Below are positions 7,426-44,001 of a DNA stretch of 64,000 bases, one piece after another (within the stretch, counting starts at the first letter, position 1; each line of letters begins with the position of its first letter). Made by a program: the position numbers and the translations under genes. The DNA comes from Haloterrigena salifodinae. GTDB lineage: Archaea > Halobacteriota > Halobacteria > Halobacteriales > Natrialbaceae. The notes under the pieces were generated by a model. It was not told the DNA's origin. It did not search any database and saw nothing but the letters and a program-made list of their open reading frames with translations. The stretch lies in the NCBI RefSeq assembly GCF_003977755.1, contig NZ_RQWN01000001.1, positions 1,611,969 to 1,675,968 on the forward strand, read 5' to 3'.

Positions 7426-7446
7426 GTTGCTCGAGACGACTCGTTC

Positions 7447-7466
7447 AGTGCGCGCCACCGCACACC
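7447..7466 (-). repeat. Short remnant of the dispersed GTGCGGTGGCGCGC repeat
   Basis: The sequence AGTGCGCGCCACCGCACACC matches, in reverse, the left edge of the longer repeats at 38276, 39963 and 42716. Only the edge motif is retained. Confidence 0.5.
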
Positions 7467-38258: not shown

Positions 38259-38275
38259 CGGACCCGACGAACTAC

Positions 38276-38413
38276 GTGCGGTGGCGCGCGGCGTGACGTG
38301 GTGAGCGAACGGCGAACCACGTCACGAAGTCGTGCGAGGGATGAGCGAGCGACGGGAGGAGAGAGCGAGTCGGCTGGGGAGGAACGTGGAAATCCCCGTT
38401 GCCACGGGTGCAG
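38276..38413 (+). repeat. Dispersed intergenic repeat, copy A
   Basis: It starts GTGCGGTGGCGCGC and ends near CCGTTGCCACGGGTGCAG. In the middle an inverted repeat GTGACGTGGT ... ACCACGTCAC (10-base arms) forms a hairpin. The right half matches copies B and C: GAGTCGGCTGGGGAGG, then GTGGAAATCCCCGTTGCC. It lies between the convergent sulfatase and JAMM genes. It encodes no protein. Confidence 0.75.
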
Positions 38414-38438
38414 GGTGCTCGTCGTCGGTAGCCGCCGA

Positions 38439-39839: not shown

Positions 39840-39962
39840 GGCTTGTCGTAGGTGGGGAAGGGTGAAAAACCGCCGCCTCTCCTCGAGTTCGTCCGTCCTC
39901 GAGTTGTTCATCCAAGGAATCAGATTGCAACGATTACAAAGACAGACGAAGACTCGAGCGTT

Positions 39963-40104
39963 CTGCTCATGCTGGCGGCGAGGGTTTCCACACGCCTCCC
40001 CAGCCGATTCGCTCACTCACTTCGTTCGTTCACTCATCCCTCGCGCAGAGTCGTCGATCGATCCTCGCTATCGCTCGGCCGATCGATAGCGCGCGCCACC
40101 GCAC
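39963..40104 (-). repeat. Dispersed intergenic repeat, copy B (reverse orientation)
   Basis: Read on the minus strand it starts GTGCGGTGGCGCGC (complement at 40091-40104). A local hairpin made from CTATCGATCGGCCGAGCGATAG follows. It ends with GAATCGGCTGGGGAGGCGTG and a version of CCAGCATGAGCAG. The edges match copies A and C, the centre differs. It fills most of the 304-base gap between the cobalamin and F420 reductase genes. Confidence 0.75.
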
Positions 40105-40143
40105 GTGGTTCGACCGGAGTGCGACAGAAACGCCGATAGACGT

Positions 40144-40812
40144 TCAATTAAACTTCACACCGACGTCGTGCAGGTCGTCGTTGTACTTTGCGATGTTGAT
40201 CACGAGTGGCGTGACGCTCTCGACCTCGGCCGCGTTCGCGAGGGGACCGACGTCGAGCGCGCGCAGGCCCTCGATCTCGTTGGCGAGGTTGCGGACGGTC
40301 TCCTTGGCGTCATCGTCGTCAGCGACGAGGAGGGTGTCCAGGTCCAGCTCGTTGTCCAGATCCGAGAGCGCGTCGGCCGCGAGGTTATGGAAAGCGCCGA
40401 CGACGGGCACCTCGTCGGGCGCTCGTTCGGCGACCAGTTGGGTGACGCTGCCGGTTCCCGGCGGGTGGTAGTGCAGGCCGTCCTCGTCGCCCTGCATGCC
40501 GACCGCGGGGGTGACCAGGATCGTGTCGGAATCGAGGTTGTCGGCGACGGCTTCGACGGTGTCACCGGCGTAGTACGGCGGGACGCTGAGAACGACGACG
40601 TCGGCCCGGTCGGCCGCCATCTCGTTGGCGAAGCCCTTGACGTCCGCGTCGGCGCCGCGGGACTCGAGGTTCTCCTCGTAGGTGTCGACCGCGTCGCGGG
40701 CCTTCTCGGGATCGCGCGAGCCGATGAGGACTTCGTGATCCGTATCGCGTGCAAAGCGCAGGGCCAGCCCCTGCCCGATATCGCCGGTTCCGCCGAGTAG
40801 TGCGATTCGCAT
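40144..40812 (-). CDS. npdG: F420-dependent NADP reductase
   Basis: It transfers hydride between coenzyme F420 and NADP. The 222-residue protein starts MRIALLGGTGDIGQGLALRF, a Rossmann fold with the NADP motif GGTGDIG and the RDPEKAR segment for phosphate binding. Later blocks: VVVLSVPPYYAGDTV, ILVTPAVGMQGDEDG and VVGAFHNLAADALSD, with the C-terminal helices. The start at 40812 is supported by a TATA-like CCTTTTATTC about 28 bases upstream, and an ATG at 40833 would overlap it. Confidence 0.94.
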   Translation of the reverse strand: MRIALLGGTGDIGQGLALRFARDTDHEVLIGSRDPEKARDAVDTYEENLESRGADADVKGFANEMAADRADVVVLSVPPYYAGDTVEAVADNLDSDTILVTPAVGMQGDEDGLHYHPPGTGSVTQLVAERAPDEVPVVGAFHNLAADALSDLDNELDLDTLLVADDDDAKETVRNLANEIEGLRALDVGPLANAAEVESVTPLVINIAKYNDDLHDVGVKFN

Positions 40813-41644: not shown

Positions 41645-42682
41645 ATGGAGCTCTCGATCGTCGATCTCGCACCGATGCCGGAGGACGGTACCGCGACAGA
41701 GGCGTTCGACCACACGGTCAAACGCGCCCAGCGGGCCGAGCAACTCGGCTACTCGCGGTTCTGGGTGGCCGAACACCACGACTTCACCGACTCCGTCGCG
41801 AGCACGACGCCGGAGGTGGTGATCCCCTACGTCGCCGCGAAGACCGACGAGATCCGGGTCGGCTCGGGTACCGTATTGCTCAACCACTACAGCCCGTACA
41901 AGGTCGCCGAGACGTTCGGCGTCCTCGACGCCCTGGAGCCCGGCCGGATCGACCTCGGTCTGGGCCGGGCGACGGGGAACCCGGCGAGCGACCTCGCCCT
42001 CCAGCCGGATCGCAGCCAGCGGCGACGGACCGGCGACGATCAGGCGGAGAAGATCGACGAGGTCGCAAGCCACTTCCATGACGGATTCGCGGACGACCAC
42101 CCGTTCGGCGAACTCGAGATCCCCCGGTCGGGCGACTCCGCGCCCGAAATCTGGGTCCACGGCTCGAGTCCCGCGAGCGCGAAGATCGCCGGCGAACTGG
42201 GACTGCCGTACTGTTTCGCCGCGTTCATCCGCCCCGAGCCGGCCGTGCAGGCGTTCGACACCTACCGGGAGCACTTCGAGCCCTCGCCGGACGGCGCCGG
42301 CCTCGAGGAGCCCAGCGGCGCCATCGCGGTGAACATGACCTGCGCCGAGACCGACGCGGAGGCCGCGCGGCTCCGCGCGACCGCCGAAGCCTCGTCGCGA
42401 CTGCTCCGCAACGGGCAGGTCGACCGACTCCCGATCCGGTCGGTCGACCGGGCGATCGACGTCCTCGGCGGGGTGCCCGATCCGACGCCGACGGACATCG
42501 AACCCGGCGACTGGCCGCGGTACCTCTCCGGCGGGCCGGAGACGGCCCGCGAGATCCTCGAGGAACTGACCGCACAGGCCGGGGTCGACGAGGTCGTGAT
42601 CCAGAGCCAGCACGCAGACCCCGAAACGACGCTGCGCTCGCACGAACTGCTCGCCGACGCCGTTGGACTCGAGGCGCGGTGA
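41645..42682 (+). CDS. LLM-class flavin oxidoreductase
   Basis: A 345-residue TIM-barrel oxidoreductase of the bacterial luciferase-like family (type 1), using FMN or F420. The N-terminus LSIVDLAPMPEDGT then GYSRFWVAEHHDF is the family signature, and VGSGTVLLNHYSPYKVAETFGVLDALEPGRIDLGLGR matches closely. The C-terminal half ends ILEELTAQAGVDEVVIQSQH. In haloarchaea such proteins often use F420, and npdG is a near neighbour. The substrate is unknown. Confidence 0.93.
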   Translation: MELSIVDLAPMPEDGTATEAFDHTVKRAQRAEQLGYSRFWVAEHHDFTDSVASTTPEVVIPYVAAKTDEIRVGSGTVLLNHYSPYKVAETFGVLDALEPGRIDLGLGRATGNPASDLALQPDRSQRRRTGDDQAEKIDEVASHFHDGFADDHPFGELEIPRSGDSAPEIWVHGSSPASAKIAGELGLPYCFAAFIRPEPAVQAFDTYREHFEPSPDGAGLEEPSGAIAVNMTCAETDAEAARLRATAEASSRLLRNGQVDRLPIRSVDRAIDVLGGVPDPTPTDIEPGDWPRYLSGGPETAREILEELTAQAGVDEVVIQSQHADPETTLRSHELLADAVGLEAR

Positions 42683-42715
42683 CAGGAACTATCGACCTTC
42701 GGACTGACGAACTGA

Positions 42716-43065
42716 GTGCGGTGGCGCGCGCTGGGACGTGGTAAGCGAACAGCGAACCACGGCGCGAAGTCGTGCGAGATCTTCGTGAGTGAACGAACGA
42801 AGTCGTTCGAGACGGCTTCGCCGTCTCGTGATGCGAAAAATCCCCAATTTTTCAGCAGCTTGTCAGAACTCACTCTGACAGTGGATGTGTGAGCGAGCGC
42901 AGCGAGTGAGCGTTAGCGTGGAACCGGAGGTTCCGCGAACCATGCGAACGGGCAGAGCGCGGCGCAACGCGCCGCGATTGTCGGGACGGCGGAGCCGTCC
43001 CGCAGCGCCCGTGAGCAGAAATCGGTTGGGGAGGGTGTGGCAATCCCCGTTGCCAGGATGAGCAG
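42716..43065 (+). repeat. Dispersed intergenic repeat, copy C, with a six-hairpin insertion
   Basis: The left edge (GTGCGGTGGCGCGC) and right edge (ATCGGTTGGGGAGG, then CCCCGTTGCCAGGATGAGCAG) match copies A and B. About 210 bases between them are not in the other copies. They hold six consecutive inverted repeats: 42794-42809, 42809-42827, 42861-42880, 42920-42934, 42958-42976 and 42982-43002, the last with nine-base arms. No open frame of significance. It occupies most of the 479-base gap between the LLM and GDPD genes. Confidence 0.75.
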
Positions 43066-43161
43066 CGTGCGAGATTTGTTTCCTCGAGTCATCGAACGCT
43101 ATCCTCCGACGAATACCCACGAGAACACAGCCTCCATTAGCCCCGCCGTCGTCCTCCGACC

Positions 43162-44001
43162 ATGGACAGTCCAGCGGTGATCGCCCACCGCGGTTACGCC
43201 GGCGTCGCCCCGGAGAACACCGTCGCAGCGGCCACAAATGCGGCAGCGAACGACGAAACGGCGATGCTCGAGATCGACGTCCAGCCCGCGGCCTGCGGCA
43301 CGCCGGTCGTGATCCACGACGAGCGCCTCGAGGGCACCGATACCCGCGACGGCCGTCCGCTGACCGACGCAACGGGCCTCGTCTGGGAAACGTCGCTCGA
43401 GGAAATCCGAGCCGCACGCGTCCTCGGGACCGACGAGACGGTGCCGACGCTCGCGGAACTGCTCGAGGCGATCCCCGAAACGGTCGGCGTCAACGTCGAA
43501 CTCAAAAATCCGGGGACGGCCGACCTGCGGTTCGGCGAGTCCCTCCCAGCCGAGGATCGGGCCGACCGCCGCGAGGTCTGGACGCCGTTCGTCGAGCGCG
43601 TGATCGAAACCTGCGACGCGTTCGACGGCGAACTCCTCTTCTCGTCGTTCTGTGAGGGCGCGCTCGCGACCGTCCGCGAGATCGCTCCTCGGTACGCCGC
43701 CGCGACGCTCGTCTGGGACGACCTCGAGGCGGGACTCGAGATTGCCCGCCGCTACGACTGCGAGGCGATCCACCCGCCGAGAAACGCGATCGCCGGGACG
43801 GCGCTGGCTGACACCGAGTACGCCGGGTTCGGCGCCGGCGGGCCCGAGATCGACGTGCTCAAGGACGCCCACGCCGAGGGCCGGACGGTCAACGTCTGGA
43901 CGGCCGAGAACTGGCGCCAGTTCGAGGCGCTGGCCGCCGCCGGCGTCGACGGGATCGTCGTCGATTACCCGGGGCTTGGAACGTACTCGAGCGATCAGTA
44001 G
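43162..44001 (+). CDS. Glycerophosphodiester phosphodiesterase
   Basis: A 279-residue TIM-barrel enzyme that hydrolyses glycerophosphodiesters to glycerol phosphate and an alcohol. The catalytic HRGYAG is at residues 10-15 with PENT following. The metal-binding EIDV and PVVIHDERLEGTDTRDGR block come next, then GVNVELKNPG. The C-terminus DGIVVDYPGLG completes the barrel. No signal peptide, so cytoplasmic. A role in lipid turnover, probably of archaeal phosphodiesters, is inferred. Confidence 0.95.
   Translation: MDSPAVIAHRGYAGVAPENTVAAATNAAANDETAMLEIDVQPAACGTPVVIHDERLEGTDTRDGRPLTDATGLVWETSLEEIRAARVLGTDETVPTLAELLEAIPETVGVNVELKNPGTADLRFGESLPAEDRADRREVWTPFVERVIETCDAFDGELLFSSFCEGALATVREIAPRYAAATLVWDDLEAGLEIARRYDCEAIHPPRNAIAGTALADTEYAGFGAGGPEIDVLKDAHAEGRTVNVWTAENWRQFEALAAAGVDGIVVDYPGLGTYSSDQ

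Follow-up and report, generated by a model that had tools for sequence, protein, structure and literature searches.

The closest described systems to the locus studied here come from Haloquadratum. The PATEs (palindrome-associated transposable elements) of this genus, which other haloarchaea also have, carry palindromes near their termini, without terminal inverted repeats or target duplications, and the SMR-A repeats (small mobile repeats), of ~110 bp, insert into the palindromes of PATEs or of IS605 elements (PMC3119063). Expression of PATE-derived RNA has also been reported (PMC10544981). In this work we describe a dispersed repeat that hosts nested palindromes of its own, found in a stretch of 64,000 nucleotides from Haloterrigena salifodinae (the window). 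On balance, we think it probable that the locus belongs, as one of its copies, to a multi-copy family of structured-RNA elements in haloarchaea and specifies a folded RNA domain at the ends of transcripts, the function being one that we infer.

The initial annotation of the window had noted six inverted repeats at 42794-43002, and all six are present, far above the expectation from a first-order Markov control. They lie at 42794-42809 (7-bp arms, 2-nt loop), 42808-42828 (9-bp arms, loop TTC), 42835-42853 (7-bp arms, loop CCCCA), 42917-42937 (9-bp arms with one mismatch, 3-nt loop), 42958-42976 (8-bp arms, loop AAC) and 42982-43002 (9-bp arms, loop GGA). A seventh hairpin, absent from that annotation, occupies 42861-42880 (7 bp, 6-nt loop, TGTCAGA/TCTGACA). 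When hairpins are counted by perfect arms of at least 7 bases and loops of 2-6, the interval 42794-43002 holds 6, and no other 209-bp stretch of the 64-kb window holds more. The average in composition-matched first-order Markov sequences is 0.10 and the maximum 2 (2000 trials).

The same annotation had placed the hairpins inside a dispersed repeat, and this was borne out by 59 BLASTN matches in the own genome (E<=1e-3) with recurrent sharp boundaries. The real element is larger than had been noted, at 42717-43065, and the named hairpins are its least conserved parts. A lack of coding capacity, also claimed, is plausible; species differ by module insertions of ~52-107 nt, mostly not multiples of three. 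The minimal element measures ~145 nt and forms a core of four helices: a closing stem P1, a stem P2a capped by P2b, P3 and P4. This fold was obtained with RNAalifold on minimal copies and refined by hand, and a covariance model, R1, was built from five copies. P1 joins both ends of the element, P2a encloses P2b, and the tip of P2b carries tandem G.A pairs and a short loop. P3 consists of GAU and then 2-bp G-C/Y-R steps with tandem G.A between them, and P4 of GGY/GCC and GGGGA/UCCCC. The parts of the copy under study, its neighbours and the other traces of the core in the window are as follows.

Ends at 42682, + strand: upstream gene, luciferase-like oxidoreductase by inspection
42717..43065, + strand: whole element copy, core plus nested modules (sharp repeat ends; R1 matches at 42714-42851 and 42955-43069; orthologous locus in five congeners)
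42717..42719, + strand: 5' strand of P1, TGC, pairing with GCA at 43062-43064 (R1 structure; 86.5% of cells paired in the own genome, 94.7% across genera)
42725..42776, + strand: P2, that is P2a (42725-42730 with 42771-42776) and the hypervariable hairpin P2b as its cap (42737-42742 with 42756-42761)
42779..42882, + strand: module M1, which holds M1b, inserted at GCGAG^GGATGAG (absent in minimal cores; at one orthologous site present in L304 and absent in L104)
42794..42809, + strand: hairpin 1, across the M1/M1b junction (from the module boundaries)
42803..42857, + strand: module M1b, 55 bp, within M1 at GAAG^GCTTG, with hairpins 42808-42828 and 42835-42853
42861..42880, + strand: the other hairpin of M1, TGTCAGA/TCTGACA (paired in other copies too, with differing sequences)
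42884..42912, + strand: P3, of which the 5' side, the loop and the inner part of the 3' side lie here (GAT, then 2-bp steps with GA between them); the outer 3' part, ATC, is at 43021-43023 (RNAalifold)
42913..43019, + strand: module M2, 107 bp here, which holds M2b, inserted at GAGCG^AATCGG, with hairpin 42917-42937 and an outer hairpin split by M2b
42953..43004, + strand: module M2b, ~52 bp, at the tip of the second M2 hairpin, with hairpins 42958-42976 and 42982-43002 (most M2 copies skip exactly this stretch)
43024..43054, + strand: P4 hairpin, GGT/GCC and GGGGA/TCCCC (RNAalifold, pairing counts)
Starts near 43162, + strand: downstream gene, glycerophosphodiester phosphodiesterase-like by inspection
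38274..38417, + strand: second core copy in the window (R1, 87.5 bits)
39959..40106, - strand: third core copy in the window (R1, 128 bits)
7446..7463, - strand: 18-bp remnant of a core 5' end (G005 carries a tail-to-tail element pair at that border)

The six hairpins thus do not form a single unit; they belong to double-hairpin modules that are optional and lie nested in a dispersed element. Hairpins 2 and 3 constitute M1b, hairpin 4 belongs to M2, and hairpins 5 and 6 constitute M2b, while hairpin 1 spans the M1/M1b junction and is therefore a by-product. Nested palindromic elements were among the readings that the initial annotation had offered, and the comparison of orthologous sites agrees with it, as the modules are present at some of these sites and absent from others. 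When the same intergenic site is compared in five congeners (G001-G005), the element is present in all of them with differing content. For example, G002 and G005 have the core of ~145 nt, G003 has the core and M1, lacking both M1b and M2, and the window copy has the core, M1, M1b, M2 and M2b. Elsewhere, orthologous site 6 holds the core alone in G001 (L284) and carries M2 at GAGCG^AATCGG in the own genome (L135), and site 7 holds the core alone in G003 (L290), the same M2 insertion in the own genome (L131) and M1, M1b and M2 in G004 (L289). At site 11, M1 is found in G001 (L304) and not in the own genome (L104). No target duplication is evident at the module insertion points in the orthologous sites compared. 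The points at which the core has either gained or lost modules are fixed, and are junctions and hairpin tips.

Modules sit mostly inside cores, with a few isolated look-alikes. M1b has a near-complete separate match at G007:C34:22173-22232. Isolated double-hairpin look-alikes of M2 lie away from core motifs in G005 (L311:12220-12410, L330:14590-14780 and L316:8570-8760), which suggests that modules can exist on their own. The 3-base loops of otherwise conserved module hairpins read TTC or GAA in different copies of M1b and M2b (e.g. window 42808-42828 vs L289), as if hairpin tips had been inverted. We envisage the modules as secondary palindromic insertions. The core would tolerate them since they lengthen junctions or hairpin tips and leave its helices intact.

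Structure has constrained the evolution of the core. In the R1 alignment of the own genome 92.5% of pair cells are standard pairs and 34 of the 36 pairs have changes on both sides; double-change cells number 314, against 89 on shuffling and at most 50 with slid partners. The proportion of paired cells is 95.0% in the congener G005 (64 matches in 1.2 Mb) and 94.3% in a mostly cross-genus set, and 30-34 of the 36 pairs change on both sides over the sets; these alignments are fitted to R1, which inflates the pairing counts somewhat, and slid controls fall to 24-64%. Among the individual helices of the own genome, P2a is paired in 96.7% of cells and P2b in 92%, every pair of both with double changes, and the helices of P3 in 90-95% (98-100% across genera). 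The stem of P2b is replaced wholesale between orthologues with pairing kept. P4 may compete with an extended P1 (GTGGC/GCCAC), and the minimum free energy fold of a minimal copy uses this P1 extension. A pseudoknot between GGGG and CCCC was considered and dropped, as RNAalifold accounts for both strands as hairpin P4, and a tRNA-like cloverleaf was rejected after ARAGORN returned none in the 64-kb window.

A check for compensatory base changes in aligned homologous regions, which the initial annotation had called for, uncovered massive compensatory change and left its claim unrefuted. Between orthologous copies that are at least 80% identical we counted 31 compensatory double changes, compared with 0-2 in slid controls, and pairing has therefore been kept in place. 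Gene conversion or recombination between copies, importing whole compensated stems, is a possible contributor; the G001 orthologue looks recombinant.

The constraint is also strand-specific. G.U pairs outnumber A.C by 164 to 44 in the own genome and by 112 to 14 in the cross-genus set, and one P2a column reads G-U 26 times, G-C 23 times, A-U 4 times and unpaired once. The folding energy of a minimal copy is -63 kcal/mol (z -4.2) for the + strand and -44.7 (z -2.65) for the - strand. We conclude that the + strand is the folding molecule. This molecule is probably RNA in preference to single-stranded DNA, since G.T pairs are costly in DNA. The structured RNA that the initial annotation had listed as a possibility is accordingly supported for the core that holds the hairpins, by the compensatory change together with the G.U-biased strand asymmetry.

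The element is widespread in haloarchaea and fixed in its genus. The covariance model finds at least 50 core copies in the own genome. With the intergenic region as query, matches were obtained in 12 of 41 genomes, five congeners having many copies, and R1 matches 50 of 146 sampled Halobacteriales genomes from 22 of 57 genera (E<=1e-8). Copies in five relatives number at least 146, 105, 63, 41 and 24 (E<=1e-4, with no more than 150 candidates scored per genome). Among the matches listed, an exact-pattern search for the core motif returned Natrinema, Haloterrigena, Natronococcus, Halosimplex, Halococcus, Halorussus and others. The phylum sample gave no core outside Halobacteriales, all four matching genomes belonging to the order. 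None of the 4227 Rfam models matches the window, the element or the minimal core at its gathering threshold, the chance matches (E 4.7-4.9) being far below it, and in the open-access literature we found work on PATEs and SMRs and no description of this fold. A phage origin was rejected: phage records gave no match, and only 6 plasmid records did.

Flanks of 12 own sites were joined into a chimeric query, with which orthologous intervals were fetched from the five congeners. In 39 of the 45 intervals R1 finds the element, with place and strand unchanged, for sites that were taken from high-scoring own copies and may favour old ones. The six exceptions are two short empty intervals (L293, L299) and others with a different sequence at the border. 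The element is thus old and constrained, not recently mobile. It can be lost, as seen from the 18-bp remnant at 7446-7463, where G005 has a full tail-to-tail pair; this apparent empty site is a deletion remnant and not a clean vacancy. At the border orthologous to window ~39900-40170, another palindrome run replaces the core in G004 (L264) and G002 (L265), with GTGCGGTCGC...GCGACCGCAC and AGCCGCGC...GCGCGGCT; it is possibly another nested-hairpin family at the same border.

Gene borders differ in how often they host the element. In G005 (60 x 20 kb) it occupies 16 of 152 borders between convergent genes, 24 of 462 between codirectional genes and 6 of 159 between divergent ones, counts that rest on crude gene calls made for the purpose, and convergent borders are also the most occupied in the own genome. 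The upstream neighbour runs in the same sense for 35 of 51 copies in the own genome and 40 of 59 in G005, commonly with no more than 120 nt between its stop codon and the element. A strict sense 3'-UTR element, which these distances suggested, was set aside, as orientation between codirectional genes is near-random (sense vs antisense 12 vs 11 in the own genome, 17 vs 13 in G005); this weakens a 3'-UTR role. Two elements that lie close together are without exception inverted (13 of 13 pairs in G005, of which 11 meet 3' end to 3' end), and the own-genome pairs are arranged likewise. Inverted pairs within a few hundred bases are found, e.g. at L347:17716-18015 and L331:10631-11003 (G005) and L112:2016-2349 (own genome). 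Inverted duplication was discarded as the origin of pairs, since partners resemble each other to the same degree as non-partners do (0.741 vs 0.739). Some 6-20 nt beyond the core lies a stretch rich in pyrimidines and T; TTTT tracts follow only 13% of copies, which appears too few for a canonical terminator. Only 2 of 210 cores have a TATA-like box within 120 nt upstream, which is no promoter signal, and a promoter of the element's own was dropped as a candidate.

From these patterns we propose that transcription of the + strand would yield a folded RNA through which the element acts, in most cases within a transcript that continues beyond the 3' end of the upstream gene. The fold and its pyrimidine-rich tail may protect or define the transcript end, and tail-to-tail pairs would then serve both strands of one gene border.

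Several other explanations can be set against this proposal. That the hairpins are chance palindromes in GC-rich intergenic DNA has next to no probability: a G+C content of 66% is all that speaks for it, none of the 2000 random sequences reaches even 3 hairpins, and the covariation in the own genome, the congener and other genera speaks against it too; this reading is refuted. A double-stranded or cruciform DNA site for nucleoid, replication or recombination functions would fit the palindromic modules, the dispersal along chromosomes and the inverted pairs, and the initial annotation had suggested a nucleoid or replication-related site. We found no evidence for one; the elements are spread over whole chromosomes, and the strand asymmetry speaks against a duplex or cruciform role, with G.U tolerated and A.C not, tandem G.A pairs that exist solely on the + strand, and a P2a column that is so often G-U or G-C. 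Such a site is very improbable. An unlikely origin, with more in its favour, is a PATE-like, non-autonomous IS200/IS605-type element that is moved as single-stranded DNA by TnpA in trans and hit by SMR-A-type repeats; its palindromes would be transposase recognition structures and its fold would matter as single-stranded DNA. Here too we see nested palindromic inserts and strand-specific folding, a copy number that varies between relatives (24 to at least 146) and a few empty sites (L293, L299). However, the TnpA family (PF01797) has no match in any of the six genomes tested, namely the own genome, G001, G003, G047, G077 and G155, several of which carry at least 24-63 copies, and R1 has no match at the two own TnpB loci or at the TnpA loci of G002, G004 and G005, so that none of these has the element at its ends. 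With no TnpA in the own genome and unrelated TnpB ends, an IS605 origin was rejected. Furthermore, 39 of 45 sites are common to the genus, and what seemed an empty site in the window is a deletion remnant. Dead transposon copies would not be expected to show compensatory change in place. TnpB matches in the own genome number only two (L070 and L071, one with a stop codon) and TnpA matches none, which is few for a haloarchaeon by published counts.

There are two further alternatives. A transcription terminator or insulator cassette, made of structure and a U-rich tail at gene borders and often doubled for convergent genes, would explain the enrichment at convergent over divergent borders, the tail-to-tail pairs and the pyrimidine-rich tail. 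There is also a precedent in Haloferax: its terminators consist of T stretches that end with C, and a single hairpin put to the test there stopped 59% of transcripts (PMC7237163). We nevertheless hold it to be quite unlikely: T4 tracts are rare, antisense copies are nearly as common as sense ones between codirectional genes, and a four-helix fold of 145 nt far exceeds the needs of a terminator. A multi-locus family of trans-acting small-RNA genes, each member having a variable P2b hairpin of its own, is decidedly improbable. It could account for a conserved fold with a hypervariable arm, the random orientation to neighbours and the wide spread in Halobacteriales with no Rfam match; that said, there is no promoter signal of the TATA type ahead of the cores, an sRNA gene would not usually occur in tens to more than 140 copies in one genome, and a preference for convergent borders is unexpected. 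We therefore return to a folded RNA domain at transcript ends. Going beyond this, and more tentatively, it may represent a class of archaeal RNA, regulatory or structural, that has so far gone unrecognised. Such a class would be a four-helix domain found across the haloarchaea, one helix of which alternates 2-bp steps with tandem G.A pairs. It would be fixed at gene borders, up to a hundred or more of them in a genome and often as tail-to-tail pairs, and would have an arm that is quickly replaced yet always paired. By absorbing nested double-hairpin modules, its RNA would grow through palindromic insertion, like expansion segments.

What we regard as real and unusual is a covariation-supported element family without an Rfam entry, the palindromes of which are modularly nested. 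If the RNA reading is true, it would be among the more abundant structured non-coding elements of halophilic archaea, and one absent from Rfam. The element occurs in genera that can be cultivated (among them Natrinema, Haloterrigena, Natronococcus, Halosimplex and Halococcus) and offers a natural experiment, since a single fold stands in hundreds of copies at defined places, some bearing nested modules and some free of them. The way in which small palindromic repeats such as SMRs insert can also be approached directly through it, because orthologous sites give insertion points to within a base or two.

How does the element compare with the known systems? Like PATEs, it is short, non-coding and dispersed in haloarchaeal genomes, with heterogeneous copies that are struck by small repeats (PMC3119063). 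It shares with them the absence of terminal inverted repeats and a length too short to code, its ends TGCGGTGGC and GCCACGATAGCAG having only short imperfect complementarity (P1) and its core ~145 nt, as well as palindromes close to both ends, here P2 and P4. Ends like those of IS605 elements were not found at the own TnpB loci or the TnpA loci of the three congeners, and mobility by strain-specific clean insertions was not seen in the comparison of congeners, which is between species, the few empty sites being of unproven precision. In contrast to PATEs, no IS605-type partner was found for it, and it shows genus-wide occupancy, a four-helix core with in-place compensation, a hypervariable P2b and a tandem G.A helix. 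We do not file it as a PATE, because it fails PATE features that were tested, its modules differ from SMR-A and six genomes have no TnpA; it may descend from a PATE. The modules resemble SMR-A in being short palindromic inserts inside another non-coding repeat, with no target duplication seen and mobilisation unexplained (PMC3119063). They are double hairpins of ~52-60 bp at fixed points, whereas SMR-A measures ~110 bp and has terminal inverted repeats, a separation by size and ends. No terminal inverted repeats were seen in the modules, and location inside another palindrome applies to M2b.

Other systems are more distant. The omega RNA of TnpB and the right ends of IS605 elements are also structured RNA in small repeats without coding capacity, those associated with IS605. 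Our element bears no relation to the end of the own TnpB locus, and R1 has no match at the two own TnpB loci or at the TnpA loci of G002, G004 and G005. The double-hairpin elements and GC clusters of fungal mitochondria are compact double-hairpin modules in structured or intergenic regions. They belong to a different domain of life and are likened to our modules by architecture; our modules have as their host an element with a conserved fold of its own. Bacterial REP and BIME sequences are likewise intergenic, present in many copies and in inverted pairs, with proposed roles at transcript ends. However, these are simple palindromes of 20-40 nt, whereas the core described here is a 145-nt multi-helix fold with covariation.
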